DNA from: Arthrobacter sp. MYb214
GTDB lineage: Bacteria > Actinomycetota > Actinomycetes > Actinomycetales > Micrococcaceae
Length of the DNA: 64,000 nucleotides
Assembly: GCF_002979865.1 (NCBI RefSeq)
Contig: NZ_PCPZ01000005.1
Span: 62,001 to 126,000, forward strand
Direction: 5' to 3'
Position 1 is the first letter of the stretch; each line of letters begins with the position of its first letter. A program made the position numbers and the translations under genes. Below are positions 17,784 to 56,412 of this stretch, one piece after another. The notes beneath the pieces were generated by a model, which saw only the letters and a program-made list of their open reading frames with translations, was not told where the DNA came from and did not search any database.

Positions 17784-20342
17784 CTAGCTATCGAAGTAGT
17801 TTGGCGCGTGCTCGTTGTGAGCAGGTGGAGTCGGCATCTCGACTTTCTTCTGCACCTTCAGCATGCCAGCGGCGTAGTCCACCGAAACGGTGTCACCAGC
17901 GGCAAGCGAATCACTGATCAGCAGGTCGGCAATGGCATCCTGTACCTTCCGCTGTACCAGCCGGCGCAGCGGGCGAGCACCGAACTCGGGGTCGTAGCCT
18001 TCGTTTGCCAGCCACTGTACGGCAGCGTCGCTCACCTCCAGCTTCAGCTCCTGGTCCACCAAGCGAGCTTCGGTCTCGGCGATGACCAGCTTGACGATCT
18101 GGCCAATCTCGGACTGCGAGAGCTTGGAGAACAGCAGTACCTCGTCCAGCCGGTTCAGGAACTCTGGGCGCATGAACTCGCGTACCTTGCCCATGACCTT
18201 GGCCCGGATTTCTCCAGCCTCACTGGTGGCATTGGCGGAGGTGAAACCGAAGTTTCCGGCCTTGTTGGCCAAGTACTCGCCGCCGAGGTTGCTGGTCATC
18301 AGGATCAGCGTGTTGGAGAAATCGACAGTGCGCCCGGCTGAGTCGGTCAACCGGCCGTCATCGAGTACCTGCAGCAGCACGTTGAACACGTCCGGGTGAG
18401 CCTTCTCGATTTCATCGAGCAGCACGACCGAATACGGGTTGCGGCGGATCTTCTCGGTCAGCTGGCCGGGCTCGTCATGGCCGATGTACCCCGGAGGTGC
18501 TCCGATCAGGCGCGCCACGGTGTGCTTCTCACCGTATTCGCTCATATCGACTCGAACCAGCGATTCAGCCGAACCGAAGAGGTTTGCAGCCAGGGCCTTG
18601 GCCAGTTCGGTCTTTCCGACGCCGGTGGGACCCAGGAAAAGGAACGAGCCGATGGGGCGACCTGCTGGCGACATTCCGGTACGGTTGCGACGCACGGCGC
18701 GTGCCACAGCGGCAACGGCATCGTGCTGGCCGATGACCGAAGCATGCAGGGAATCTTCCAGCGAAGCCAAGCGTGCCTTGTCATCTCCCGAGATGCGCGA
18801 GGTGGGGATGCCGGTGGATCGGGAGATCACTTCCGAAATCTGCTTCTCATCCACTACCCGGGTGACCCCTGCATCGCCGGCCTCCTCAGCAGCCTTGATG
18901 CGCGCGGTCATCTCCACGATGTGGTCACGCCATGCGCCAGCTTCTTCGAATCGTTCCTCGCCGATAGCGCGTGACTTCTCACGCTCGGCGTCTACCAATT
19001 CGGCACGCAGGGACTGCACATCCTCGGCATCTCCGGCAGCGATGGACCGCCGGGCACCGGCGATATCGATCAAGTCGATGGCCTTGTCAGGAAGCTGGCG
19101 GTCGTTCAGGTAGCGGGCAGAGAGCGTCACCGCGGCCTTGAGCGCTTCGGGGGTGTACTGCACCTGGTGGTGATCCTCGTAGGATTCGCGCAGGCCGTCC
19201 AAAATGGCCAGTGCAGTTTTCTCCGACGGCTCGGCGACAGTAACCTTGCCGAAGCGCCGAGCCAGCGCGCTGTCCTTCTCCACCTTGCGGAACTCATCGA
19301 GCGTAGTGGCGCCGATCATGTGCAGCTCGCCACGCGCCAAACGCGGCTTGAGGATATTTGCGGCGTCCATATTGCCGGACTCGCCAGAGCCTGCACCGAC
19401 CAGCAGATGCATCTCATCGATGAATATCAGCACCTGCCCTTCGGCTGCGGCTACCTCGTCGAGCAGGCCGGTGAGCCGCTGCTCGAAATCTCCGCGGTAG
19501 CGGGTTCCGGCGAGCATGCCCGGAAGATCAATGGAGATCAAGGCCGCATTGCGCAGTTGGGCTGGTACCTGGTCATCGATGATGGCGCGGGCCAGGCCTT
19601 CGGCAATGGCGGTCTTGCCCACGCCGGCCTCGCCAATCAGCACAGGGTTGTTCTTGGTGCGACGGGCCAGGATTTCAATAACCTGATCCAGTTCCTCCTT
19701 GCGTCCGATCACCGGATCAATCTGGCCGTCGGAGGCCAGCAGGGTCAGATCGGTTCCGTAGCGTTCGAGCATGGACACGTCGGACTCGGAATCGGACTGG
19801 TTCTGGGTATCGTTTTGGCCACGCTGGGCCTGCTCCATGGCGGCTTGCTGCAAGGACTGGCTGGTGATGCCGTGCTGCGCCAGGAGCTGGCTGACCGGAG
19901 ATTCCGGGTTGAAAACGAAGGCCAGGAAAAGATGATCAGGATCGATGTAGGTCGAACCGTAGTTACGAGCAACCTGATAGGCGTCAAAGAGGCTGCGCTG
20001 AGCTGCCGACGATAGGTGGGATGGTTTCTCGCCCTTCTCCTGGGACTTGGGCATGCGCGCGATGGCATCTGCACTCAAAGCCTCGATGTCGATACCCATG
20101 GCGGTCAGGTGCTCGCCGACTGGTTCGGTGCGCAGCAGAGCCATCAGGAGGTGCAGGGAATCAATCTCGTCGTGGCCATGCTCCTGGGAAATCGCTGCCG
20201 CGGTGGCTACCGCTTCGTGGGTGCGGGCGGAAAGCAGGCGCGTGAGGTCGATGGGACGTGCTGCCTGGGCACGTGAAGACAGGAATCGAGAGAGGAATTC
20301 CTCAAACGAGCCATCTGACGGTGCGCCGAAAAATGCTGGCAA
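17784..20342 (-). CDS. Clp/Hsp100 AAA+ ATPase, ClpC-like
   Basis: An 852-residue unfoldase. It has two Clp_N repeats (about 35-170), AAA1 with Walker A GEAGVGKT (237-244) and Walker B FIDEMH, then a short linker with a UVR-like coiled segment (about 452-486) rather than the long ClpB middle domain. AAA2 has Walker A GPTGVGKT (571-578). An FGF tripeptide (698-700) sits where ClpC/ClpA carry the ClpP-docking loop, so protease partnership is possible. The N terminus has an extra 30-residue extension. The TTG start follows AGGAGG. The HAIR box upstream points to heat-shock control by HspR. Confidence 0.9.
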   Translation of the reverse strand: MPAFFGAPSDGSFEEFLSRFLSSRAQAARPIDLTRLLSARTHEAVATAAAISQEHGHDEIDSLHLLMALLRTEPVGEHLTAMGIDIEALSADAIARMPKSQEKGEKPSHLSSAAQRSLFDAYQVARNYGSTYIDPDHLFLAFVFNPESPVSQLLAQHGITSQSLQQAAMEQAQRGQNDTQNQSDSESDVSMLERYGTDLTLLASDGQIDPVIGRKEELDQVIEILARRTKNNPVLIGEAGVGKTAIAEGLARAIIDDQVPAQLRNAALISIDLPGMLAGTRYRGDFEQRLTGLLDEVAAAEGQVLIFIDEMHLLVGAGSGESGNMDAANILKPRLARGELHMIGATTLDEFRKVEKDSALARRFGKVTVAEPSEKTALAILDGLRESYEDHHQVQYTPEALKAAVTLSARYLNDRQLPDKAIDLIDIAGARRSIAAGDAEDVQSLRAELVDAEREKSRAIGEERFEEAGAWRDHIVEMTARIKAAEEAGDAGVTRVVDEKQISEVISRSTGIPTSRISGDDKARLASLEDSLHASVIGQHDAVAAVARAVRRNRTGMSPAGRPIGSFLFLGPTGVGKTELAKALAANLFGSAESLVRVDMSEYGEKHTVARLIGAPPGYIGHDEPGQLTEKIRRNPYSVVLLDEIEKAHPDVFNVLLQVLDDGRLTDSAGRTVDFSNTLILMTSNLGGEYLANKAGNFGFTSANATSEAGEIRAKVMGKVREFMRPEFLNRLDEVLLFSKLSQSEIGQIVKLVIAETEARLVDQELKLEVSDAAVQWLANEGYDPEFGARPLRRLVQRKVQDAIADLLISDSLAAGDTVSVDYAAGMLKVQKKVEMPTPPAHNEHAPNYFDS

Positions 20343-20471: not shown

Positions 20472-21146
20472 CTAGTCTTTCGGGATTTCGATAAGGCCCA
20501 TACGCGCGGCCGCAACCAGGGCCTGGACCCGATCGCGAACATTCAGCTTAACGAAAATCTTCGCCATATGGGTTTTAACCGTGGTTTCGGAAATAGTCAG
20601 AGTTCTTGAAATCTCGGTATTGTTTAGCCCGCGTGCGAGCAGTTTTAGAATCTCGAATTCCCGATTGGTAATTCCCAAGTCATAGGCCAGTTCTTGAATG
20701 TCTTGGGAATTATCCCGGTAAGCTTCGCGAACCGCAGAAACTAGATCAGAAGAAACCGACGGGGAAATGGCTGCAGTTCCTTGGTGAACGGCATGGATCG
20801 CATGAATAATTTCATCTGGTTCAGAGTCTTTTACCAAGTATCCGCTGGCCCCAGCGGTCAGTACCGGAACCAGATAGTCGTCCGAAGAAAAGGCGGTAAT
20901 GGCAAGCACTGAGGGGCTGTCTTCGGCAGATTTGATTGCTTTAGTAGCGCTAACCCCGTCCATTATCGGCATCTGCAAATCCATGAGCACAACGTCCACT
21001 TGATTGCCGCTGCAATACTCGACGGCGGCCTGTCCATTTTCAACAGAATTAACCGTTACAATTCCGGGGTCTGTTGCTAGGATTGTGCCCAACGCATGCC
21101 GAATTAGAGGTTCATCATCGACAATAAGGACCTTTATTTGTTCCAT
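20472..21146 (-). CDS. NarL/FixJ-type response regulator
   Basis: A 224-residue regulator. The receiver domain (about 4-120) has the acidic pocket VDDE and phospho-acceptor Asp56 (LMDLQMP), with Lys in KDSEPD. A LuxR-type HTH follows at about 155-218 (LTISETTVKTHMAKIFVKL). The ATG at 21146 is preceded by AGAGGA; an upstream in-frame ATG lacks a ribosome-binding site. It is divergent from the peptide and histidine-kinase genes across an 84-bp promoter region, and is the natural partner of the HisKA_3 kinase at 21460. Confidence 0.92.
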   Translation of the reverse strand: MEQIKVLIVDDEPLIRHALGTILATDPGIVTVNSVENGQAAVEYCSGNQVDVVLMDLQMPIMDGVSATKAIKSAEDSPSVLAITAFSSDDYLVPVLTAGASGYLVKDSEPDEIIHAIHAVHQGTAAISPSVSSDLVSAVREAYRDNSQDIQELAYDLGITNREFEILKLLARGLNNTEISRTLTISETTVKTHMAKIFVKLNVRDRVQALVAAARMGLIEIPKD

Positions 21147-21180
21147 CTGATTCCTCTGATTCGATGCGGGTGGCCTCATG

Positions 21181-21208
21181 TTGGCCTGTTCACCTGAAAG
21201 TATATAAG
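21181..21208 (+). promoter_or_regulatory. Promoter of the small peptide gene
   Basis: TTGGCC (21181-21186) and TATAAG (21203-21208) are separated by 16 bp and lie 22 bp before the peptide ATG. On the opposite strand TATACT (21204-21199) could serve the response regulator, so the two promoters would overlap. Confidence 0.5.
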
Positions 21209-21230
21209 TTGATCTGATGTGGAGTTTGTT

Positions 21231-21413
21231 ATGAAGGGTTTGAAAATGCTGGCCGTAGCAGCATTAGTTCTGGCACCATTGACCGCCGTGGCAGCTCCTG
21301 CATCTGCCGCGAGCTCTCCAGCCTCCAGCAGTGGCAACGTTGCTACTCCTGCTGGCTTTGGCTCAGCCTTCTCGGAGTGGTTCTGCAAACGCTACGGCGT
21401 CGCCTGCCCATAA
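21231..21413 (+). CDS. Secreted small peptide precursor with Cys-x6-Cys C terminus
   Basis: A 60-residue precursor. Basic N terminus (MKGLK), hydrophobic core (about 6-22), and a signal-peptidase-like A-S-A site at 24-26. The predicted mature part is about 34 residues: Ser/Ala/Gly-rich, then WFCKRYGVACP at the C terminus with Cys52 and Cys59, which could form a disulfide ring. GTGGAG precedes the ATG at about 7 bases; a GTG four codons upstream is less likely. It lies between a divergent response regulator and a co-directional membrane kinase (46 bp downstream), so I infer a signalling peptide. No family recognised. Confidence 0.75.
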   Translation: MKGLKMLAVAALVLAPLTAVAAPASAASSPASSSGNVATPAGFGSAFSEWFCKRYGVACP

Positions 21414-21459
21414 CGCGGTTTATTTGACTTGATCATCTGAGCCGGGAATTATTCGGCAT

Positions 21460-22644
21460 ATGAATGGACGACTAAAGGACACCCTGACCAAGCTCTTCGC
21501 TGGTCGGGGTGTCATTGTTTGGACTGGTATTGCGGTTCTGATCGCGGTTTCCAGTAGCGAGTTCGTGACTCTGCTGGAAGACGGATTTAGTGGTTCGTCG
21601 GATATTTCGGTTCGAGGCGCGTTGCTCGGCGTTGGACTGTGCGCAATTCTTGCGCTTGGTCTTCGCTGGGTTGCCGTATCCGTCGGATTGTTTGTGGCAG
21701 TTGCCTATTTCTTCCTCACGGACGGCGCCTTGTTCTTCTGGACTGTCGTTTCATTCATGATTTTTTCGGCGCTGGCAGCTACGGCCAGTGCCATGAGTGT
21801 TAGGGCCTTATTCCTAACCTTGTCCGCAGCGTGGATGGTGCAGTTCGGCGTCCAGTCCGGGCAAGACGCGGTTCTGCTTGTCGGGATTGCCCCGTTGACG
21901 GCGATGGCGTTCTTCTTAACGAGGAATATTTACTTGCTGCGCGAGAAGAACGAGCTCGCTCTTCGGCAAATGCATACGGTCAAAGAGCAGACTCGTCTTG
22001 CTGTCGACCGGGAGCGAAAGAACATTGCCCGGGATCTGCACGATATTGTCGCGCATGACATCACGGTCGTGGCCATGCAGTCGAAGGCCGCGAAATTCGC
22101 AAACGATGGGCAGAAGGCCCTCGAAGCTCTGGATGTCATCGCCAAACTGAGTACTGAGACTTTGCACGATTTACGCCTGATGCTCAATGTCCTGAGGGCT
22201 GATGGGACCATGGCAGATCCCTCGTCCCAGGGCATTGATAAGCCGGCCGCTACTACTGTTTACGCGCTTCAGGGTGCAGAACTTTTCGTTCAGAGGCTAA
22301 AAGAGGCAAATTTCGAGGTGAGCTCCACCACTGACGAGAAAATTTCCGAATTGCCCCGTTCTGCACAGACTGCGATTTATCGGGTCATGCAAGAAGGTAC
22401 AACAAATGTGATAAAGCACGGTGCCTTGGGCGGGAAGTGCACCTTCGAACTCACGGTCCAAGGGGCAGAGGGTATCCTGGAAATTACTAATCAGATGGGG
22501 AATTTCGACAAGAAGGCGAGTGGGTTGCCCGAAGGCGGGACAGGCCTGATTGGCATGGGTGACAGGATGCGTGCATTTGGTGGAAAGTTTGCAACCAGTT
22601 CCGAAAACGGTGTTTGGGCACTGCGCGCAAGCATCCCGTTCTGA
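21460..22644 (+). CDS. Membrane sensor histidine kinase (HisKA_3/NarX-DesK type)
   Basis: A 394-residue kinase with about five or six transmembrane helices in residues 17-160 and almost no extracytoplasmic domain, an arrangement common for kinases that sense peptides or membrane state. A coiled linker (161-185) leads to the HisKA_3 dimerisation helix with phospho-acceptor His194 (IARDLHDIVAHD). The HATPase has N-box QEGTTNVIKHG and G-box GTGLIGMGDRMRAFGG. It probably phosphorylates the divergent response regulator at 20472. Co-directional with the peptide gene and likely co-transcribed. No terminator seen directly after it. Confidence 0.9.
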   Translation: MNGRLKDTLTKLFAGRGVIVWTGIAVLIAVSSSEFVTLLEDGFSGSSDISVRGALLGVGLCAILALGLRWVAVSVGLFVAVAYFFLTDGALFFWTVVSFMIFSALAATASAMSVRALFLTLSAAWMVQFGVQSGQDAVLLVGIAPLTAMAFFLTRNIYLLREKNELALRQMHTVKEQTRLAVDRERKNIARDLHDIVAHDITVVAMQSKAAKFANDGQKALEALDVIAKLSTETLHDLRLMLNVLRADGTMADPSSQGIDKPAATTVYALQGAELFVQRLKEANFEVSSTTDEKISELPRSAQTAIYRVMQEGTTNVIKHGALGGKCTFELTVQGAEGILEITNQMGNFDKKASGLPEGGTGLIGMGDRMRAFGGKFATSSENGVWALRASIPF

Positions 22645-23212
22645 CCCCTACCCTCCTACTAAAGTATGATTTCGGATTTTCGCAGGACGCGATAAGTTAG
22701 ACATGTATCGGTGAAGACCGATCACCGGGAAGGTACTTGGTGGTGTTTTGCGAGTGGCATCACTAAGGATCCGAGGGTGATTAAAAGGTACGTTGCATTG
22801 CGTAAACGGACTGATCTTTCATCGGCGCTGTGCCCCCATCGCACGCCGTTGTCTGTCAGTAATGCAACGTACCTTTTATAACTTAAACCCAGCCCGTGTT
22901 TCTGCGTTCTGCCTCACACCTCAGGTCGGAATGGGCCTGCGTGGCGGGGTGTTGCGCCTATGGAGAGCATTTCCTGTCTGGGAAGCGAGCGCGCATGAGT
23001 ACCCAGGCAGATACGGTTGTTTGGCAACAATAAGGCCTGGCCGTGGAGCCTAAGGGCGGCTTTGATAGCAAGACGGCAGATGCTGCGATCAACGCAGAAG
23101 CAACCGCAGATTCTTTGGCCGTGAAGGCCGGCGAACCAAGCGGGGCCCATGGTTCGATCGCCTGCCGTGGCACGACGCCGAGCTGGCCACGCGCATCGGC
23201 TAGTCGATGAAT
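22645..23212. other. Gene-poor region with degenerate coding traces
   Basis: No supported gene in about 570 bp. It includes the hairpin ATCGGT-GAAG-ACCGAT (22707-22722), the 97-bp inverted-repeat element (22782-22878), and a frame from about 23044 to 23203 (Ala-rich, starting EPKGGFDSKTADA) that looks like a remnant but has no start signal and no recognised relative. Short frames on the other strand are equally unsupported. Confidence 0.4.
22782..22878. repeat. 97-bp element with perfect 18-bp terminal inverted repeats
   Basis: TAAAAGGTACGTTGCATT (22782-22799) is repeated exactly in inverse at 22861-22878. The 61-base interior holds further nested pairs: ACTGA/TCAGT (22810-22814/22856-22860), CGGC/GCCG (22823-22826/22845-22848) and GTGC/GCAC (22830-22833/22841-22844). 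It could be a miniature transposable element or the gene of a long structured RNA. No flanking duplication beyond TA. Confidence 0.75.
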
Positions 23213-23264
23213 CAACGGCAAAGGGTGCGAGAACTCGAATTAGCTCTCGCACCCTTTGCCGTTG
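23213..23264 (-). terminator. Strong hairpin terminator after the 401-residue gene
   Basis: CAACGGCAAAGGGTGCGAGA (23213-23232) and its exact complement (23245-23264) form a 20-bp perfect stem with a 12-base loop, 9 bp past the stop at 23273. Confidence 0.88.
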
Positions 23265-23272
23265 CTGGTGGT

Positions 23273-24478
23273 CTAAACCTCGGAAGCCTCTGCCTCTTGG
23301 GTGTCTTTCAAAACATGATCAGAGACCTTGGCCAGCGCTCGTTCCAGTGAAGAGCGCAAGACCACAGGAATCGTGATCTCGTCATTAATCTCGACAAGGC
23401 CTTCGCGTTCAAAGACGCGCAGCAGGGACTCGACCTGGGGGACAACCTCCTCAAGGCTGGCAATCAGGTGATGCTGCTCGGCGGGAAGGTCATCTTCGGT
23501 CGGAACTTGCAACGCGAACTCGGCACGTGGCGGTGTCGATGATGCGGCATTGCTCAACACGCCGGCCACCATCTCGGCGATCTGCGCCTTGCCCGGCTGC
23601 TCCAAGGTGTTGATCAGGATGTGCGAGTAGAGAACCTCTGCAATCAGCTCCTTGACCAAGCGGGCGCCTTGTCCGCTGGATGCCAGCAGCGCATCGCTGA
23701 GCGACTCGGTTGGGGTTGCGTTCGGTTCCTGGTAGCGCAGCATGGCCGTGCCGATCAGGGCGTCCCAGTATGCCGATAGGCGTGGAATGTCGGCCAGCGA
23801 AGAAACGGCAGTGCCGTCTTCCGGCTCCCACTGGGCATCCTCTGGAACGCCGGCGGATTCATCGACCTTGACGAACAGGCCCAGCGCGCTGGCCGCATCC
23901 TGCAGCGTATCGCCGGTGAGTACGCCAGCTGGGGTGGTCGGCTTGCCTTCGCCAACCCAGCTGATCAACTCGCGAGCCGCAAAAACGAAGGGCATCGCTT
24001 CGAGGCTGCCGTTGGCCTCATCATCTTCGAGATAAGGTGCCACGATGGGTGAATCGCCAGCCATGCGGGAGAGGAATTCGAAAGTCTGCTTGAAGTCATC
24101 CACGCTTCCGCCGAAATTAGCGGTCGTGCCCAGGAAAGTCAGGTAATGCTTGAGGATCGCAGCGCTGGCTTCCGAAACTTCCTTGCCCAGCGACGTCAAG
24201 TGGCCCAGCTGTTCACCCAGAATCGTCGGATCCAGGGTTTTGACGTCAACGCTCTGGCGCAACTGGGCATGCACGGTCAGCAGGGTAGTGAGCCCTTCGA
24301 GCGCTGCGCGGGTCTCGCTGGCTGCCTGGCCCTCTTCGTGGAAGTGGCGGAAGAGCGAGGACTTGAATGGCTGAAGAGCTTGGCGCACTTCAGATTCAAA
24401 AGGCACGCTGCTGGCGCCGGAACGGCGGGCTGGATGACCCTGGGCAGGCTTCTTCTTGGCTGGTTTACGTGAGGCCAT
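23273..24478 (-). CDS. Conserved protein of unknown function, 401 residues
   Basis: The N terminus (1-25) is Lys/Arg/Pro-rich, and the rest is mostly acidic and helical. Long amphipathic stretches (about 45-125, 330-390) could form helical bundles. No transmembrane segment, signal peptide or recognised catalytic motif. The C terminus is acidic (TQEAEASEV). The ATG at 24478 has only a distant AAGGA. It is monocistronic with a strong terminator. Codon use looks native. I do not recognise the family. Confidence 0.75.
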   Translation of the reverse strand: MASRKPAKKKPAQGHPARRSGASSVPFESEVRQALQPFKSSLFRHFHEEGQAASETRAALEGLTTLLTVHAQLRQSVDVKTLDPTILGEQLGHLTSLGKEVSEASAAILKHYLTFLGTTANFGGSVDDFKQTFEFLSRMAGDSPIVAPYLEDDEANGSLEAMPFVFAARELISWVGEGKPTTPAGVLTGDTLQDAASALGLFVKVDESAGVPEDAQWEPEDGTAVSSLADIPRLSAYWDALIGTAMLRYQEPNATPTESLSDALLASSGQGARLVKELIAEVLYSHILINTLEQPGKAQIAEMVAGVLSNAASSTPPRAEFALQVPTEDDLPAEQHHLIASLEEVVPQVESLLRVFEREGLVEINDEITIPVVLRSSLERALAKVSDHVLKDTQEAEASEV

Positions 24479-49979: not shown

Positions 49980-50039
49980 AGGGGCTATTCTCCCATCTTT
50001 GCCAGGACCGCGCAGGCCGCGGTCTGCTAGGTTGGTTCG

Positions 50040-50876
50040 ATGGCCATGCGTAAATACAGCGAAGTCGACGTCTTTTCTCCCACTGCATATCTGGGCAACC
50101 CCTTGGCTGTGGTCCACGATGCAGAAGGCCTGGCCAGCGGGCAGATGCAAGGATTTGCCAAGTGGACCAATCTGGCCGAGACCACGTTCCTGATGCAACC
50201 GGAGGATCCGGCCGCCGACTACCGGGTGCGGATCTTCTCTGCCACCCAGGAATTCCCCTTCGCCGGCCACCCGACGCTGGGCTCGGCCTTTGCCTGGCTG
50301 AAGGCCGGCGGGGTTCCCAAGAAGAAGGGACGGGTCATCCAGGAATGCGCCGCCGGGCTGGTGGAGGTGCGCGTTGAGCCGCAACGGCTATGGTTCGCTG
50401 CACCGCCGCTGACCCGCTACGAACCGGTTGCCGAATTGCTGGTGCAGCGCATCGCCGAGGTACTGGCGATTCCCCGGGAGCAGATCCAGGATGCCTCATG
50501 GCTGGTCAACGGCCCGGAATGGATCGGGGTGAGGCTCTCCAGTGCGCAGCAGGTACTGGCCTTGGACCCGGATCCCAACGCCCTGGGGACGCTGGCCATC
50601 GGGGTTGCAGGTCCGCAGGAGCCAGAGGCCGGCACGCAGTTCGAAGTGCGTGCTTTCGTCGGCGGGGACCCAGTTTGGGAAGACCCGGCTACCGGCAGCC
50701 TCAATGCGGGCCTGGCCCGGTGGCTGGCCGATTCCGGGTTGGCTCCCGAACGCTACATCGCCGCCCAAGGCACCGCGATCGGGTACCAGGGCCGGGTGCA
50801 TCTGCGCGTGGAGGACGGCGTGGTCTGGGTGGGAGGCGACGTGAACAGCTGCGTGCAGGGCGAAGTCGACCTCTAG
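50040..50876 (+). CDS. PhzF-family isomerase-like protein
   Basis: A 278-residue protein of the diaminopimelate-epimerase fold. Conserved Glu47 (LAETTF), FPFAGHPTLGSAF (74-79 core) and EDPATGSLNAGLARWL near the C terminus match PhzF. Family members isomerise an amino-hydroxy-cyclohexadiene acid or act as related isomerases, but most have no known reaction. TAGGTT (50028-50033) lies six bases before the ATG, so the mRNA is probably leaderless. Confidence 0.9.
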   Translation: MAMRKYSEVDVFSPTAYLGNPLAVVHDAEGLASGQMQGFAKWTNLAETTFLMQPEDPAADYRVRIFSATQEFPFAGHPTLGSAFAWLKAGGVPKKKGRVIQECAAGLVEVRVEPQRLWFAAPPLTRYEPVAELLVQRIAEVLAIPREQIQDASWLVNGPEWIGVRLSSAQQVLALDPDPNALGTLAIGVAGPQEPEAGTQFEVRAFVGGDPVWEDPATGSLNAGLARWLADSGLAPERYIAAQGTAIGYQGRVHLRVEDGVVWVGGDVNSCVQGEVDL

Positions 50877-50898
50877 GCTTGCAGCCGCGCCCCGCCGC

Positions 50899-51723
50899 CT
50901 AGGCCGCTGGCTGGCAGGAAGGGCACAGGTAGCAGTCCCGCTCGGCACCGGTGGAAGCCGAGGGAATGCGCAGCAGCCCGATGCGGGTTCCGCAGCGCAG
51001 GCAGGGCTTCGACGCCCGGCCGTAGACCCACAGCGGGTCGCGGGTGCGCGGCTGCCCGGTAGTCACCCGCCGCGACCGGTCCTTGTTCACCACCAGCAAG
51101 CGGTGGGCCAGTTCGATTAATGCCGGCAGGCCGGCCACCTCGCCCACCGCGGTGAGCGGATGCACGCGCCGCAGGAACAGGATCTCGCTGCGGTAGACAT
51201 TTCCCACCCCGGCCATGATCCGCTGGTCCAGCAGCGCTTGGCCGATGCCCAGCTGCGGATCGGCGCGCAGGTTGTCCAGCGCCCGTTGCGCATCCCAGTC
51301 CGGCCCGAGCAGGTCGGGTCCCAGATGGCCGACCACCTCGGATTCCTGTTCGGTTGGCAGCAGTTTCACCTGGGCGATCTCGAAGCCCACGGCCTTGGCG
51401 TTTGCTGTTTCCAGCACCACCCGGGCGGTATGCGCCGGGCGCTTCCAGCGTTCGCCTGGCGCATAGAGATCCCAGCGCCCGTCCATGAGCAGATGCGAAT
51501 GCAAGGTCAGCGCAGGCTGGGCGAAGGCCGGGTTGGCAGTAGCCGGCGGCTGCAGGCGCATCAGCAGGTGCTTGCCCCGGGGGATGACCTCGCGCACCGT
51601 GTACCCGGCGACGTCCACGGTGGCCAGGGCCGGGACGCGGAAATCGGAGGCCAGCAGGATTTCGCCGGCCAGCGCCTGGTGCAGGCGGGCGGTGGCGCGG
51701 TAGACGGTATCGCCTTCGGGCAT
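50899..51723 (-). CDS. nei: Nei-family DNA glycosylase/AP lyase (endonuclease VIII)
   Basis: A 274-residue base-excision repair enzyme. It starts MPEGDTVYR, with Pro2 the Schiff-base nucleophile and Glu3 the catalytic acid. PRGKHLLMRL carries the conserved Lys. The H2TH region contains MAGVGNVYRSEILF. The zinc finger has CLRC and CYLCPSC. It removes oxidised pyrimidines and cuts at abasic sites. It follows lhr on the same strand by 24 bp, an arrangement also seen in mycobacteria. Confidence 0.93.
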   Translation of the reverse strand: MPEGDTVYRATARLHQALAGEILLASDFRVPALATVDVAGYTVREVIPRGKHLLMRLQPPATANPAFAQPALTLHSHLLMDGRWDLYAPGERWKRPAHTARVVLETANAKAVGFEIAQVKLLPTEQESEVVGHLGPDLLGPDWDAQRALDNLRADPQLGIGQALLDQRIMAGVGNVYRSEILFLRRVHPLTAVGEVAGLPALIELAHRLLVVNKDRSRRVTTGQPRTRDPLWVYGRASKPCLRCGTRIGLLRIPSASTGAERDCYLCPSCQPAA

Positions 51724-51747
51724 GGGCAGCGCTCCTTCGATAGCGGG

Positions 51748-54700
51748 TCAGCGGCGGAAGCGGATGCCTTGGGGCGTCGCATAGAAACCGGCGCCCAGCA
51801 GGGCGGCGCCGACCGGATGGTCCTGCACCGGCTGCCCGTCGACCGTGGCGATGGCGATCTTGTCGACCTGGGCGGTGCGCAGCGCGGCGACCATCGCCGT
51901 GGCGAGGATGCGCCAGGACGGCTCGGGCAGCTGCCCGAAGGTCAGCACCGTGCGCCCGCCGCGCTCCAGATAGAGGCTCAGGGCCCCGTTGAGCAGCCCG
52001 ACGATTGCGCCGGCCTTGCGCCCGGGGCGGTGCCCGGTTTCGGTCGCAGGCCAAGCCAGCGCCGCGCCATAGGGGTTCGCCGGATCGGTGGAAGCCAGCA
52101 CCGTGGCCACCGGCTGGCGGCGCGGGTCATCGGCCAGCTGGAATCCGCGCAACCGGTCAATGGTGGTGGAGGTGGAGAACTGGGCGGCGCCGAGCTTCTC
52201 GACGAAGTAGCCGCGCCGGGCATGGCCAGCTTCTTCCAGCTTCGAGAGCACCCGGTAGAGCTGGCCGAAGCCGCCGGGCACCGACTCGGCGGCCACCGAG
52301 CCGCGGGTGAGCACCCCGTAGCGTTCCAGCATGATTTCCGCGGTGGCGTGGGCGCTGATCGTGGGGTCCGCTACCGGTGCGGGCAGCAGCGACCAGCGGG
52401 CCGCGCCGCGCGAGCCGCGCGCCGGCCCGCCGGCTTGTTCCCGGGCCAGCCGGTTCAGCCCGGAGAGCCGGTTCAATCGTGCGGCGCGGGCCCGCGGGGC
52501 GGGCTTGGCGATTTTGTGCGCGGTGCTTCCGCCGGCCAGGTAGCCGCGGATCGGCGCCATGGTATCCGGTGAAATGTACCCGGCCCAGAACAGCCTCCAG
52601 CAGGATTCGGCGACCTCGTGGCTGCTGGCCGCCGGGTCATCGCTGCGGTGGATGCGCCCGGCCAGCTCCTCGGCGAAGTAGGCGCCGGTGGACTCGAAAG
52701 CCTGGAGCACGCGCAGGTCCAGGGCTTGCAGCGCGCTGGCATCGGGCTGGGGAAGGCTCAGCGCTGCATGCTCGGCGGTGTGCAGCGACAGCCAGCCGTC
52801 CTTGCCCCCGGCGGCTCCGGCGCCGCAGATCAGGATATCCCCGGAGCTGCACAGCTCATCCAGCCAGGAATTCTGGTAGCCCCTCAGCCGGGCCGGGAGC
52901 ACGAAGGATTCCAGGGCGGAGGCGGGGACCTCGGCGCCGGCGAGCTGGGCAACGATTTCATAGGCGCCGTCGGCTCCCTGCAGCGAAGAACCGATCTGCT
53001 GCCAGGCCGGCAGGAAGCGCCCGTATGTGTGCTGGTCCACCGGCTCCACCTCGGCGCGCAGCGCCGCCAGGGATCGGGTGCGGATGGTGCGCAGCACCGC
53101 CACGTCGCAGTATTCGTCGCCGGCCACGCCTTCGGGGACGAGCTCCAGCGGGCGGAAGGCCCCCAGCGACAAGCGGCCGGCGGCCACCAGCTGGTCGAGA
53201 ACGGGGCGCAGCACCGCGACGCCCAGTCCCAGCTGCGCGGCCAGCTCCCCGAGGGTGAACGGGGCGTGGGTGCGGGCGAAGCGCGAGACCAGGTCCTGGA
53301 TCGGAGCGGTGGCAGGCTCCAGGAAGGCCGCCGGGATGCCGGTGGGCAGCGGGGTGCCCAGCGCATCGCGCAGCTTGCCGGCATCCTCGATGGCCGCGTA
53401 CACCAGCTGGCCGGAGCGGCGCAAGGTGAAAGCCCGGCGCGTGGAAACCAGGGCCTCGGCGTGGGCCCGGGCGCTGGCAGGATCCAGCGCCGCCTCGTCA
53501 TCGGCCGGATCGCGCAGCCGGGCTGCCAGCTGCACGGCATCCAGCGGACCCAGCAGCCGCAGCAGGTCCGCGGCGCCTTCCATGCCCGCCAACCGGCGGT
53601 TGGTTGCCAGATGCTGCAGCTGCTCCTGCAAGGCCGAGATGACCTGCGGGTCCAGCACCTCGCGCACGTCGTTGCGCCCGAGCAATTCGCCCAGCAGCAC
53701 CGGATCCAGGCTCAGGGCGGCGGCGCGGCGTTCGGCCAGCGGCGCGTCGGATTCGTAGAGGAACTGCGCCACGTAGCCGAAAAGCAGGGATTGGGCGAAG
53801 GGCGAAGGCAGCTCGGTGGTCACTTCCACCAGGCGGATGGCCCGCGAGGAGATGCTGGAGAGGATCCTGGACAGCGCCGGCAGATCGTAGACATCATTCA
53901 GGCATTCGCGCACGGTTTCCAGGATGATCGGGAAGTCCGGGTAGTTGCGGGCCACATCCAGCAGCTGGCTGGCACGCTGGCGCTGCTGCCACAGCGGGGT
54001 GCGCTTGGTCGGGTTGATCCGCGGCAGCAGCAGCGCGCGGGCGGCGCATTCGCGGAAGCGGGAGGCAAACAACGCGGAATTGGCCACCTGCGAGGTGACC
54101 ACCTCGATGATCTCGTCGGCTTCGAAGGCGAAGAGGTCCGCCCCGGGCGGCTCATCGTCCATGGCGGGGATGCGCAGCACGATCCCGTCGTCGGCGGCCA
54201 TCGCCGAGGCGTCCAACCCCCAGCGTTCGCGGACCCGCGCGCCGACGGCCAGCGCCCACGGGGCGTGCACGGCCAAGCCGAACGGGGAGTGCAGGATGAC
54301 CCGCCAGTCGCCCAGTTCATCGTGGAAGCGCTCGACCACGAAATTCTGGTGGTTGGGCACCTGGCCGGTGGCCCGGCGCTGCTCGTCCAGGTAGTTGAGC
54401 AGATTGTTCGCGGCGAACGGATCCAGCCCGCTGCCGTGCAGCACTTCGGCCGCTTCGATGCGTTCGCTGGCCAGCAGCTTCGTGGTGAATTCGCCCAGCG
54501 CCGCCCCGAGTTCCACCGGGCGTCCCAGCCCGTCGCCGTGCCAGAAGGGCAGCTTTCCGGGCTGGCCGAAGGCCGGGGTGACCAGCACCCGGTCGTGGGT
54601 GATGTCCTCGATGCGCCAGCTGGTCGCCCCGAGGGCGAAAATGTCTCCGACGCGCGATTCGTAGACCATTTCCTCGTCCAGCTCGCCCACGCGCTTGGGC

Positions 54701-56412
54701 GCCTTGTCATCCTCGGATCCGGCCAGGAAAACCCCGAACAGCCCGCGGTCCGGGATGGTGCCGCCGGAAATCACGGCCAGGCGCTGCGCCCCGGGCCGGG
54801 CGGTGAGGGTGCCGGCATCCCGGTCCCAGATCAGCCGCGGCTTGAGCGTGGCGAATTCATCCGAAGGGTACTTGCCCGAGAGCATGTCCAAGGTGGCCAG
54901 ATAGGCGCTGCGCGGCAGCTGCTGGTAGGGGGCGGCGCGGCGCACGGTGTCGAACCATTGCTCTACGTCCAAGTCGTCCATGGCCACCGCGGCCAGGGTC
55001 TGCTGCGCCAGCACATCCAGCGGGTTGGCGGGGATCACCATCTTCTCGATGGCTCCTTGGCGCATGCGGGTGACCACCAGGGCGGTGGAGAGCAGGTCCG
55101 CCCGGTGCTTGGGGAAGAAAGCGCCCCGGGAGACCGAGCCGACCTGGTGCCCGGCACGGCCCACGCGCTGCAGCCCCGAGGAGACCGAGTTCGGGGATTC
55201 GACCTGGATCACCAGATCCACCAGCCCCATGTCGATGCCGAGTTCCAGGGAGCTGGTGGCCACCACGGCGCGCAGCTTGCCCAGCTTCAGGTCTTCCTCG
55301 ATCTGGGCGCGCGAATCCTTGGACACCGAGCCGTGGTGGGCACGGGCCAATAACGGAGCTTCCGGGTGCGCGGCAGCGGTGGAGCCGGCCTGGGCCATCA
55401 GCGCTGCAGGGGTGGAGGTGGAAGCATCCTCGGCGCTGAATCCCTCGCGTTCGGCGTAGATTTCGTTCAGCCGTCCGGTCAGCCGCTCGGCCAGCCGGCG
55501 GGAGTTGGCGAAGATGATGGTCGAATGGTTGTCCAGCACCAGATCCACCAGCTGGTTCTCCACATGCGGCCAGATGCTCGCCGACGCCGCGGGGGAGGAA
55601 CCCGGACCCAGATCATGCGCTCCGGCCGCGGAAGGCAGGTCGGTCATGTCTTCCACCGGGACGCGCACCGCCAACTCCCATTTCTTGGTGGACGGCGGGC
55701 GCACGATGTTCACCGGGGCGGAGCCGGCCAGGAAGCGGGCCACTTCTTCGGGCGGCTCGACGGTGGCAGAGAGCCCGATGCGCTGGGCCGGGGCGGGCAG
55801 CAGCGCGTCGAGCCGTTCCAGTGACAGGGCCAAATGGGTTCCGCGCTTGGTATTGGCAATCGCGTGGACCTCATCGATGATGACGGTGTGCACCTCGGCA
55901 AGGGACTTGCGTGCTTGGCTGGTGAGCATCAGGTACAGCGACTCGGGCGTGGTGATCAGGATTTCGGGCGGGTCCTTGAGCAGCTTGCGCCGGTCGTTGG
56001 CCGGGGTGTCTCCCGAGCGCACTCCCACCGACACCGACGGCTGGGACAAGCCCATTTCGTGCGCGGTGGCGCGGATGCCAGCGAGCGGAGAACGCAGGTT
56101 GCGCTCCACGTCGACCCCGAGGGCCTTCAGCGGAGAAATGTAGAGCACCTTGGTGCCATTGCCCGTTGGATGATCGGCATCGGAGTCCATCCCCGGCAAT
56201 GCTGGAGCGTCAAGTTCCGCGTGGTGCAGCCGGTCCAGTGCCCAGAGGAACGCGGCCAGGGTCTTGCCCGAGCCGGTAGGCGCGATGACCAGGGTGTGCT
56301 TCCCGTCCGAGATGGATTCCCAGGCGCCACTCTGGGCAACCGTGGGCGCGGAGAAGACGTCGGTGAACCACTTGCGGGTGGCTGCGCCGAACCGGGACAG
56401 GACATCGCTCAT
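51748..56412 (-). CDS. lhr: Lhr-type ATP-dependent DNA helicase
   Basis: A 1554-residue SF2 helicase, the long form typical of actinobacterial Lhr. Walker A APTGSGKT is at 44-51, motif II is VIIDEVHAI, motif III is GLSATVEPP, motif IV-VI region is LQRVGRAGHQVGS. After the two RecA domains come the winged helix and the Lhr core beta barrel (to about 860), then a long C-terminal region homologous to Lhr-CTD. It unwinds DNA:RNA and DNA duplexes with ssDNA-dependent ATPase and aids genome repair. The ATG at 56412 is chosen; TAGTAT lies 7 bases upstream, suggesting leaderless translation. Operon with nei. Confidence 0.95.
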   Translation of the reverse strand: MSDVLSRFGAATRKWFTDVFSAPTVAQSGAWESISDGKHTLVIAPTGSGKTLAAFLWALDRLHHAELDAPALPGMDSDADHPTGNGTKVLYISPLKALGVDVERNLRSPLAGIRATAHEMGLSQPSVSVGVRSGDTPANDRRKLLKDPPEILITTPESLYLMLTSQARKSLAEVHTVIIDEVHAIANTKRGTHLALSLERLDALLPAPAQRIGLSATVEPPEEVARFLAGSAPVNIVRPPSTKKWELAVRVPVEDMTDLPSAAGAHDLGPGSSPAASASIWPHVENQLVDLVLDNHSTIIFANSRRLAERLTGRLNEIYAEREGFSAEDASTSTPAALMAQAGSTAAAHPEAPLLARAHHGSVSKDSRAQIEEDLKLGKLRAVVATSSLELGIDMGLVDLVIQVESPNSVSSGLQRVGRAGHQVGSVSRGAFFPKHRADLLSTALVVTRMRQGAIEKMVIPANPLDVLAQQTLAAVAMDDLDVEQWFDTVRRAAPYQQLPRSAYLATLDMLSGKYPSDEFATLKPRLIWDRDAGTLTARPGAQRLAVISGGTIPDRGLFGVFLAGSEDDKAPKRVGELDEEMVYESRVGDIFALGATSWRIEDITHDRVLVTPAFGQPGKLPFWHGDGLGRPVELGAALGEFTTKLLASERIEAAEVLHGSGLDPFAANNLLNYLDEQRRATGQVPNHQNFVVERFHDELGDWRVILHSPFGLAVHAPWALAVGARVRERWGLDASAMAADDGIVLRIPAMDDEPPGADLFAFEADEIIEVVTSQVANSALFASRFRECAARALLLPRINPTKRTPLWQQRQRASQLLDVARNYPDFPIILETVRECLNDVYDLPALSRILSSISSRAIRLVEVTTELPSPFAQSLLFGYVAQFLYESDAPLAERRAAALSLDPVLLGELLGRNDVREVLDPQVISALQEQLQHLATNRRLAGMEGAADLLRLLGPLDAVQLAARLRDPADDEAALDPASARAHAEALVSTRRAFTLRRSGQLVYAAIEDAGKLRDALGTPLPTGIPAAFLEPATAPIQDLVSRFARTHAPFTLGELAAQLGLGVAVLRPVLDQLVAAGRLSLGAFRPLELVPEGVAGDEYCDVAVLRTIRTRSLAALRAEVEPVDQHTYGRFLPAWQQIGSSLQGADGAYEIVAQLAGAEVPASALESFVLPARLRGYQNSWLDELCSSGDILICGAGAAGGKDGWLSLHTAEHAALSLPQPDASALQALDLRVLQAFESTGAYFAEELAGRIHRSDDPAASSHEVAESCWRLFWAGYISPDTMAPIRGYLAGGSTAHKIAKPAPRARAARLNRLSGLNRLAREQAGGPARGSRGAARWSLLPAPVADPTISAHATAEIMLERYGVLTRGSVAAESVPGGFGQLYRVLSKLEEAGHARRGYFVEKLGAAQFSTSTTIDRLRGFQLADDPRRQPVATVLASTDPANPYGAALAWPATETGHRPGRKAGAIVGLLNGALSLYLERGGRTVLTFGQLPEPSWRILATAMVAALRTAQVDKIAIATVDGQPVQDHPVGAALLGAGFYATPQGIRFRR

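Follow-up and report, generated by a model that had tools for sequence, protein, structure and literature searches.

The window analysed here, a 64,000-nucleotide stretch of Arthrobacter sp. MYb214 (contig NZ_PCPZ01000005.1, positions 62,001 to 126,000), carries a gene for a 60-residue peptide precursor located between the divergent genes of a NarL/LuxR-type response regulator (RR) and a HisKA_3 receptor histidine kinase (HK). Sequence comparison makes it very likely that these genes constitute a minimal, self-contained three-gene peptide-pheromone system. The peptide gene is genuine and conserved, and in many genera it is accompanied by the kinase and regulator genes. The C-terminal core of the peptide and the sensor half of the kinase are replaced jointly, as allelic types, whereas the kinase domain and the regulator stay closer to the species. 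The change of peptide and receptor from species to species suggests cell-to-cell signalling in soil actinobacteria. The general kind, a peptide-pheromone two-component system, is already known.

The peptide gene and its conservation

An original prediction had placed a 60-residue precursor, with a signal-like start and the end WFCKRYGVACP, between a divergent NarL-type RR and a HisKA_3 kinase, and the coordinates (Table 1) and Pfam matches bear this out. The RR matches Response_reg (E value 2.6e-29) and GerE (1.5e-18); the kinase matches HisKA_3 over residues 185-248 (2.1e-15), and its match to HATPase_c is weak (0.011, 16.6 bits versus a cut-off of 26.4). The precursor reads MKGLKMLAVAALVLAPLTAVAAPASA followed by ASSPASSSGNVATPAGFGSAFSEWFCKRYGVACP, the probable cleavage point, judged by eye to lie after APASA, falling between the two parts. 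In the translated open reading frame (ORF), W50, C52, Y55 and C59 were found in the C terminus, and the six residues separating the cysteines are as claimed; a C52-C59 disulfide is predicted. The compact multi-helix sensor of the same prediction is borne out by the hydropathy profile of the kinase alone, from which about six helices were counted by eye.

The sample comprised one genome per species. Searching 58 genomes with the peptide alone matched all 18 members of genus g1 (E 2e-33 to 1.1e-10) and nothing outside g1 better than E 0.00116. The alignment of the g1 peptides (A1) shows no variation at PAG, W, C, Y and C, and both cysteines are also invariant in the wider peptide alignment A3, which holds 31 of the 35 sequences then collected (the kinase alignment A4 holds 24 of the 35). 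Across the 18 g1 genes, the ratio of nonsynonymous to synonymous differences per site (pN/pS) was 0.207 for the signal region, 0.708 for the linker, 0.337 for the core and 0.357 for the whole gene. The corrected ratios (dN/dS; 0.087, 0.373, 0.116 and 0.149, respectively) are only rough because synonymous sites are near saturation (pS 0.68-0.73). Codon positions 1, 2 and 3 differed in 0.284, 0.218 and 0.598 of comparisons.

For the precursor, Pfam returned only a sub-threshold GlgS match and the ComX profile did not match; the PDB sequence search gave no match (best E 0.14), and searches of viral contigs, plasmids and phages likewise gave none.

A hypervariable block from the peptide core to the sensor

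Comparison of the sister genomes G010 and G001 revealed a block of divergence. At the amino-acid level the two differ by 0.9% in the Clp protein encoded beside the RR, 1.8% in the RR and 6.2% in the kinase domain, whereas the sensor half differs by 42.8% and the peptide core by 38.1%. Measured in 100-base steps, DNA divergence is 26-48% over the stretch between the end of the peptide gene and about HK residue 170, and 0-13% outside it. This pair is the cleanest of the four g1 pairs, out of five examined, that have a raised block; in G000/G015 the block has a sharp border at the kinase domain. Genus g44 has a similar block. Four close genomes form six pairs, and four of these show it clearly: the DNA of G146 and G188, for example, differs by 2.4% in the RR, 3.0% in the kinase domain and 26.7% in the sensor. 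For the further close g44 pair G111/G160 the values are 9.7% for the sensor and 2.8% for the kinase domain.

Synonymous change is raised in the block as well (in G010/G001, pS 0.73 for the sensor versus 0.22 for the kinase domain), so whole segments have been replaced, which goes beyond tuning by point changes. Such replacement, like the blurred borders in some pairs, would also be expected of an incidental recombination hotspot that says nothing about binding. The hotspot explanation has a negligible probability in our view, since in the clean pairs of both genera the block starts inside the peptide gene and ends near the border between sensor and kinase domain, and since seven other orthologous HisKA_3 kinases of the pairs G010/G001 and G146/G188 have no such block. 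The N-terminal halves of those seven (six of the 13 kinases could not be paired) differ by 1.6-15.8%, compared with 39.7% and 25.9%, respectively, for the kinase studied here. We read the block as the probable footprint of specificity groups, each pairing a pheromone with its receptor, of the kind found in agr and comQXP.

Peptide type follows sensor type

The kinase domain and RR of the g44 genome G174 are close to those of G146, G188 and G088 (0.9-1.9% different), yet its sensor and peptide core are nearer to those of G228 (27.9% and 4.3%) than to those of the former three (36.0-41.5% and 18.2-22.7%), G228 being farther away in kinase domain and RR (7.4% and 10.3%). Genome G199 is a less tidy case: it clusters by sensor with G228 and G174, yet its core is 30.4% different from that of G174. 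The window behaves similarly. Its Clp protein is closest to that of G015 (4.9%) and its kinase domain is nearer to G015 (10.0%) than to G013 (16.1%), whereas G013 is the nearer of the two in sensor and peptide (13.4% and 11.7%, versus 29.9% and 33.3% for G015).

Partial Mantel tests gave the same picture. The correlation of core with sensor was r 0.49 (p 0.003) in g44, given kinase and RR, and r 0.22 (p 0.0175) in g1, given kinase and Clp; that of core with kinase, given the sensor, was r -0.14 (p 0.72) in g44 and r 0.02 (p 0.41) in g1. The RR correlations of the g1 set, and RR values involving G016 (whose RR was cut to 8 residues by the start chosen for it), were set aside; in alignments A2 and A4 the G007 kinase is missing its first residues. 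Sensor data rejected the Clp tree in g1 (difference in log-likelihood, delta lnL, 90.5; approximately unbiased (AU) test p < 1e-4) and the tree of kinase plus RR in g44, built from 14 of the 15 genomes (delta lnL 82.8; AU p 4e-5); several groupings of the sensor tree are supported at only 64-77. Taken together, the hypervariable block in sister genomes and the association of peptide with sensor suggest a ligand-receptor pair, and the peptide-signalling role put forward in the original prediction gains support from both.

Distribution of the three genes

In all 18 g1 genomes the Clp, RR, peptide and HK genes were found in identical order and orientation. A profile of the 18 g1 peptides picked up relatives in additional genera of the family, and in the 17 such stretches read the peptide was again located between divergent RR and HK genes. 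Peptide genes were scored by a strict rule (a start codon, 40-110 residues, a hydrophobic N-terminal stretch with K or R, and Cys-x(3-7)-Cys at most six residues from the end). The kinase profile A4 gave 92 matches in 87 of 295 family genomes at E <= 1e-60, of which 75 neighbourhoods were read and 17 left. All 51 nearest kinases (E <= 6.3e-99) carry the peptide by this rule; they belong to five genera (18 in g1, 15 in g44, nine in g15, seven in g4 and two in g48), so the homologues beside the same kinase type that the original prediction looked for do exist. Among the 24 weaker kinases read, seven of g6, G177 (g52) and G147 (g45) have the peptide, and G094 and G189 (g52), with a different RR arrangement, are without it. 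Two loci of g13 with gaps near 390 bases have a looser version.

At the level of the order, 24 of 29 kinase matches in 297 genomes were read and five left; this set added 20 stretches, of which 18 came from outside the family. The strict rule detects a peptide beside the divergent pair in G357, G551 and G352, and G511 has a longer one. The phylum-wide kinase search (396 genomes) yielded, among the matches listed, mostly generic HisKA_3 kinases; of the 20 stretches chosen, all except G359 had the RR downstream and were used as controls. The kinase is a better bait than the peptide for distant searches. Matches of the peptide profile A3 in the 297 order-level genomes were also considered, and those listed outside the family were rejected as signal-sequence look-alikes because none extends past model position 52 of 62.

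Over all 121 loci read, the strict rule found a peptide in 62 of 81 with a divergent RR, in none of 36 with the RR downstream of the HK (six of these being kinase paralogues of this genome) and in none of three with the RR upstream on the same strand, thus in 0/39 of the other arrangements together; the single locus without an RR in its stretch (G147) does carry a peptide. Among dinucleotide-shuffled divergent RR-HK gaps (100 shuffles each), 0.64% per locus produced a comparable ORF. When the 35 divergent loci recruited via the peptide were removed, 27/46 versus 0/39 remained. As the loci are related, these counts are not independent trials. The 19 divergent misses comprise 11 loci of g13, two looser versions (G236, G217), the overlong peptide of G511, three leaderless candidates (G531, G450, G359) and two cysteine-free ones (G561, G463).

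The last two groups are leads only. In G531, G450 and G359 (loci L222, L229 and L232) short, apparently leaderless ORFs of the type Trp...Cys...Cys lie beside divergent pairs, and in G561 and G463 (L219 and L220) a cysteine-free, leaderless candidate, MGIFY[VI]FGKMIGIFR, lies between divergent regulator and kinase genes.

The loop between the cysteines is six residues long in 57 of 63 peptides, five in four and seven in two; 60 of the 63 have 0-2 residues after the last cysteine. There are 57 distinct C-termini among the 63 and the loop letters vary, in agreement with the conserved cysteines and variable loop expected from the original prediction. Two invariant cysteines at a nearly fixed spacing could also serve as a redox or metal switch in the envelope that the kinase reads, an explanation which we regard as extremely improbable: a switch of that kind has no need of species-specific pairing with the sensor, yet core and sensor vary together.

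Small secreted cysteine peptides are often bacteriocins, and the precursor has a match to the NCBIfam lactococcin 972 model that is below the cut-off (E 0.028, 14.7 bits versus 32.1). The peptide might on this basis be a bacteriocin or other antagonist under two-component control, with the sensor of the kinase as part of immunity. We consider this very improbable. In the eight loci compared, the genes recurring beside the set include none for immunity or transport, the peptide is present in all 18 members of g1, and the partner that has diversified is the sensor of a kinase; moreover, some inducers of bacteriocins are themselves pheromones. A plain bacteriocin identity was rejected.

Comparison with known systems

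The locus is nearest to ComQXPA of Bacillus subtilis in kinase family and pherotypes, and to staphylococcal agr (AgrB, AgrD, AgrC, AgrA) in its hypervariable region; membership of either system was rejected, and the locus is filed under neither because ComQ and AgrB are absent from it. The regulator ComA is of the NarL type. In ComQXPA, the pheromone is ComX, the kinase ComP contains PF07730 (HisKA_3) and has a variable multi-helix N-terminal part and a conserved cytoplasmic part, the peptide gene adjoins the kinase gene, and pherotypes exist (PMC4008528, PMC4408185). Our locus shares the PF07730 kinase, the multi-helix N-terminal sensor, the adjoining peptide gene and, apparently, the pherotypes. 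It also shares a tryptophan near the C terminus of the peptide, as in ComX (PMC4008528, PMC4408185), which here lies two positions before the first cysteine in 39 of 63 peptides and is replaced in 24. Unlike in ComQXPA, no ComQ gene stands beside the locus or recurs in the eight loci, these neighbourhoods and not the rest of the genome having been searched. The precursor has paired cysteines and no ComX profile match; the regulator gene is divergent, whereas the com genes are all on one strand; and the sensor has about six helices by eye, versus 8-10 in ComP.

In agr, a hypervariable region reaches from the gene of the peptide into that of its receptor (PMC3673130), to which the block across peptide gene and receptor sensor is similar; a short C-terminal signal with a ring is a second likeness, the ring being proposed here. 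No AgrB gene is among the neighbours in the window or the genes recurring in the eight loci, which was the extent of the search. The kinase is HisKA_3 and the regulator GerE, not AgrC-type and LytTR-type; the proposed ring is a Cys-Cys disulfide as opposed to the agr thiolactone, and the regulator gene is divergent as opposed to one operon.

The peptide CS of Carnobacterium maltaromaticum has a C-terminal cysteine pair and differs in its leader type, dedicated exporter and kinase family. CS, CbnK and CbnR form a three-component system of peptide, kinase and regulator (PMC1634752), which the present locus resembles; the words cysteine and disulfide are absent from that paper. In the PDB sequence search the kinase profile matched DesK chains best, over the catalytic part (best E 1e-17); the sensor half had no match in this search. 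DesK senses the state of the membrane without a peptide, and is not known to have a peptide partner. Like peptide-pheromone two-component systems in general, the locus has a peptide gene with an export signal (by the hydropathy rule only) beside kinase and regulator genes. The kinase-regulator pair of the Micrococcus luteus competence paper was considered as a counterpart and rejected, as it is reported to be an operon and is likened to sivS/R (PMC8467076), a different arrangement.

Peptide quorum sensing is a textbook trait of low-GC Gram-positives. In the open-access full-text literature searched (in part the best 25 of 3,575, 15 of 100 and 15 of 45 papers; subscription papers and preprints were not covered) no description of this system was found, nor was a counterpart in the high-GC group, the Actinobacteria, among the papers listed. 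The locus more likely than not represents an unrecognised pheromone class in Actinobacteria: a three-gene system lacking any exporter or cyclase of its own, whose signal is a six-residue, disulfide-closed C-terminal loop, whose pherotype cassettes of peptide end and sensor pass between species by recombination, and which may have leaderless versions in other families of the order. If this is true, soil bacteria would have kin-selective private channels comparable to those of Bacillus and staphylococci. The evidence goes past gene order to a signal-specificity footprint in two genera.

Proposed mechanism and its weighing

In the mechanism that we propose, the precursor would be exported by the general Sec route and then cut behind its signal sequence. 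The C-terminal part, oxidised to the six-residue C52-C59 loop, would be the signal and would dock on the adjacent kinase, at its small sensor of several membrane helices, a step for which the co-variation of peptide and sensor argues. Judging from the protein families and the gene pairing, the kinase would hand phosphate to the NarL-type regulator, whose action would be on the divergent promoter region that the genes share, with perhaps few sites besides. Secretion, the disulfide, binding, the regulatory targets and a density-dependent role are all inferred.

Several observations weigh against this interpretation. The block is not universal: the kinase part is raised too (14-26%) in G002/G014 and G017/G003, G004/G012 has no block, and in g44 the block is weak in G088/G146 (11-32% inside, 1-21% outside) and G088/G188. 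The g1 partial Mantel correlations are modest (0.19-0.39), and the kinase domain, too, shows a weak correlation with the peptide when only Clp is controlled for (core r 0.19, p 0.053; mature peptide r 0.21, p 0.046). The Clp tree is also marginally contradicted by the kinase-domain data (AU p 0.0485), so the block is not the sole part with a history of its own. Of the 13 divergent loci of g13, 11 (gaps of 27-197 bases) are without the peptide. The genes agr and comQXP do have an exporter- or processing-type gene beside them; here, comparison of eight loci from four genera shows none for an exporter, cyclase or peptidase among the genes recurring near the set, which are only the RR and HK genes (and, between g1 and g44, a neighbour encoding 401 residues). 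Finally, the leader is more conserved (pN/pS 0.207) than linker and core, which is odd for a signal that is discarded.

Leader conservation is the strongest argument for a different explanation, that the peptide is never released and, held by an uncleaved N-terminal helix, acts as an accessory subunit tuning the kinase of its own cell, the co-variation then reflecting contact within the membrane. The lack of a recurring processing gene in the eight loci fits such a subunit, as does the DesK-like catalytic part of the kinase, DesK being a membrane-state sensor. We nevertheless consider it unlikely: by eye the N-terminal region resembles a cleavable signal sequence (APASA-A), the loop keeps its length while its letters vary, and the joint replacement of C-terminal part and sensor fits specificity groups and has no evident reason in a private subunit. 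A released pheromone is the reading that we prefer.

Putative promoter and intergenic elements

The element AAGTATATAAGTT is located 21-33 bases 5' of the peptide ATG, inside an imperfect palindrome (21190-21217, 71% complementary). Its ATATAAG is invariant in all 18 g1 genomes, and the whole element is single-copy in the genome with up to one mismatch allowed. If it is the site of the regulator, the circuit would be mainly self-directed, because the element occurs once in the genome; it could just as well be an ordinary -10 element. The gap between peptide and kinase genes contains TTGACTT in 16 of 18 g1 genomes, where a separate kinase promoter is possible. The promoter scan of the sequence was not above chance (two found versus 1.6 expected), and the terminator scan was likewise near chance.

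Downstream of the kinase gene, a perfect 18-nt inverted repeat around another stem was found at 22782-22878 (RNA fold z-score -6.2, single-copy in the genome, no Rfam family at the gathering threshold). A terminator-like 23-nt inverted repeat (23213-23264, 96% complementary) lies between the kinase side and the convergent 401-residue gene.

Features of the locus

From left to right the window contains the genes for the Clp-type AAA ATPase, the RR, the 60-codon ORF, the kinase and the 401-residue protein (Table 1).

Table 1. Positions in the window of the genes and elements discussed
Feature	Coordinates	Strand	Basis or remark
Clp-type AAA ATPase gene	17784-20342	-	flanking gene
NarL/LuxR-type response regulator, 224 residues	20472..21146	-	Pfam Response_reg and GerE; longer frame starts at 21179
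Conserved promoter element AAGTATATAAGTT	21198..21210	+	5' of peptide ATG; may be -10-like and/or operator
Peptide pheromone precursor (proposed), 60 residues	21231..21413	+	60 codons and stop; conservation, pN/pS
Putative export signal, residues 1-26, AxA-like end (APASA)	21231..21308	+	hydropathy rule; pN/pS 0.207
Proposed signal: C-terminal core, residues 40-60 (PAGFGSAFSEWFCKRYGVACP), with putative C52-C59 disulfide loop	21348..21410	+	invariant residues; loop length
Stretch matching the hypervariable block (peptide core through sensor)	21348..21969	+	transferred by homology, borders approximate
Possible separate kinase promoter, TTGACT-17-AATTAT	21424..21452	+	TTGACTT conservation
Receptor histidine kinase, HisKA_3, 394 residues	21460..22644	+	Pfam; PDB sequence matches
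Hydrophobic sensor half, kinase residues 1-165, about six membrane helices, short loops	21460..21954	+	hydropathy; divergence
401-residue protein	23273-24478	-	without Pfam or NCBIfam match

The start of the RR at ATG 21146 is more likely than that at 21179, because the start codon (GTG in G015) and the preceding AGGA are invariant or nearly so in alignment A7. The 401-residue gene is kept near the signalling set in g1 and in most g44 stretches read; it was matched in all 18 g1 genomes, being farther away and cut by the end of the stretch in G014. Elsewhere in the window, the G + C content climbs to 68-72% at 50001-56000, and is 53% at 20-22 kb.

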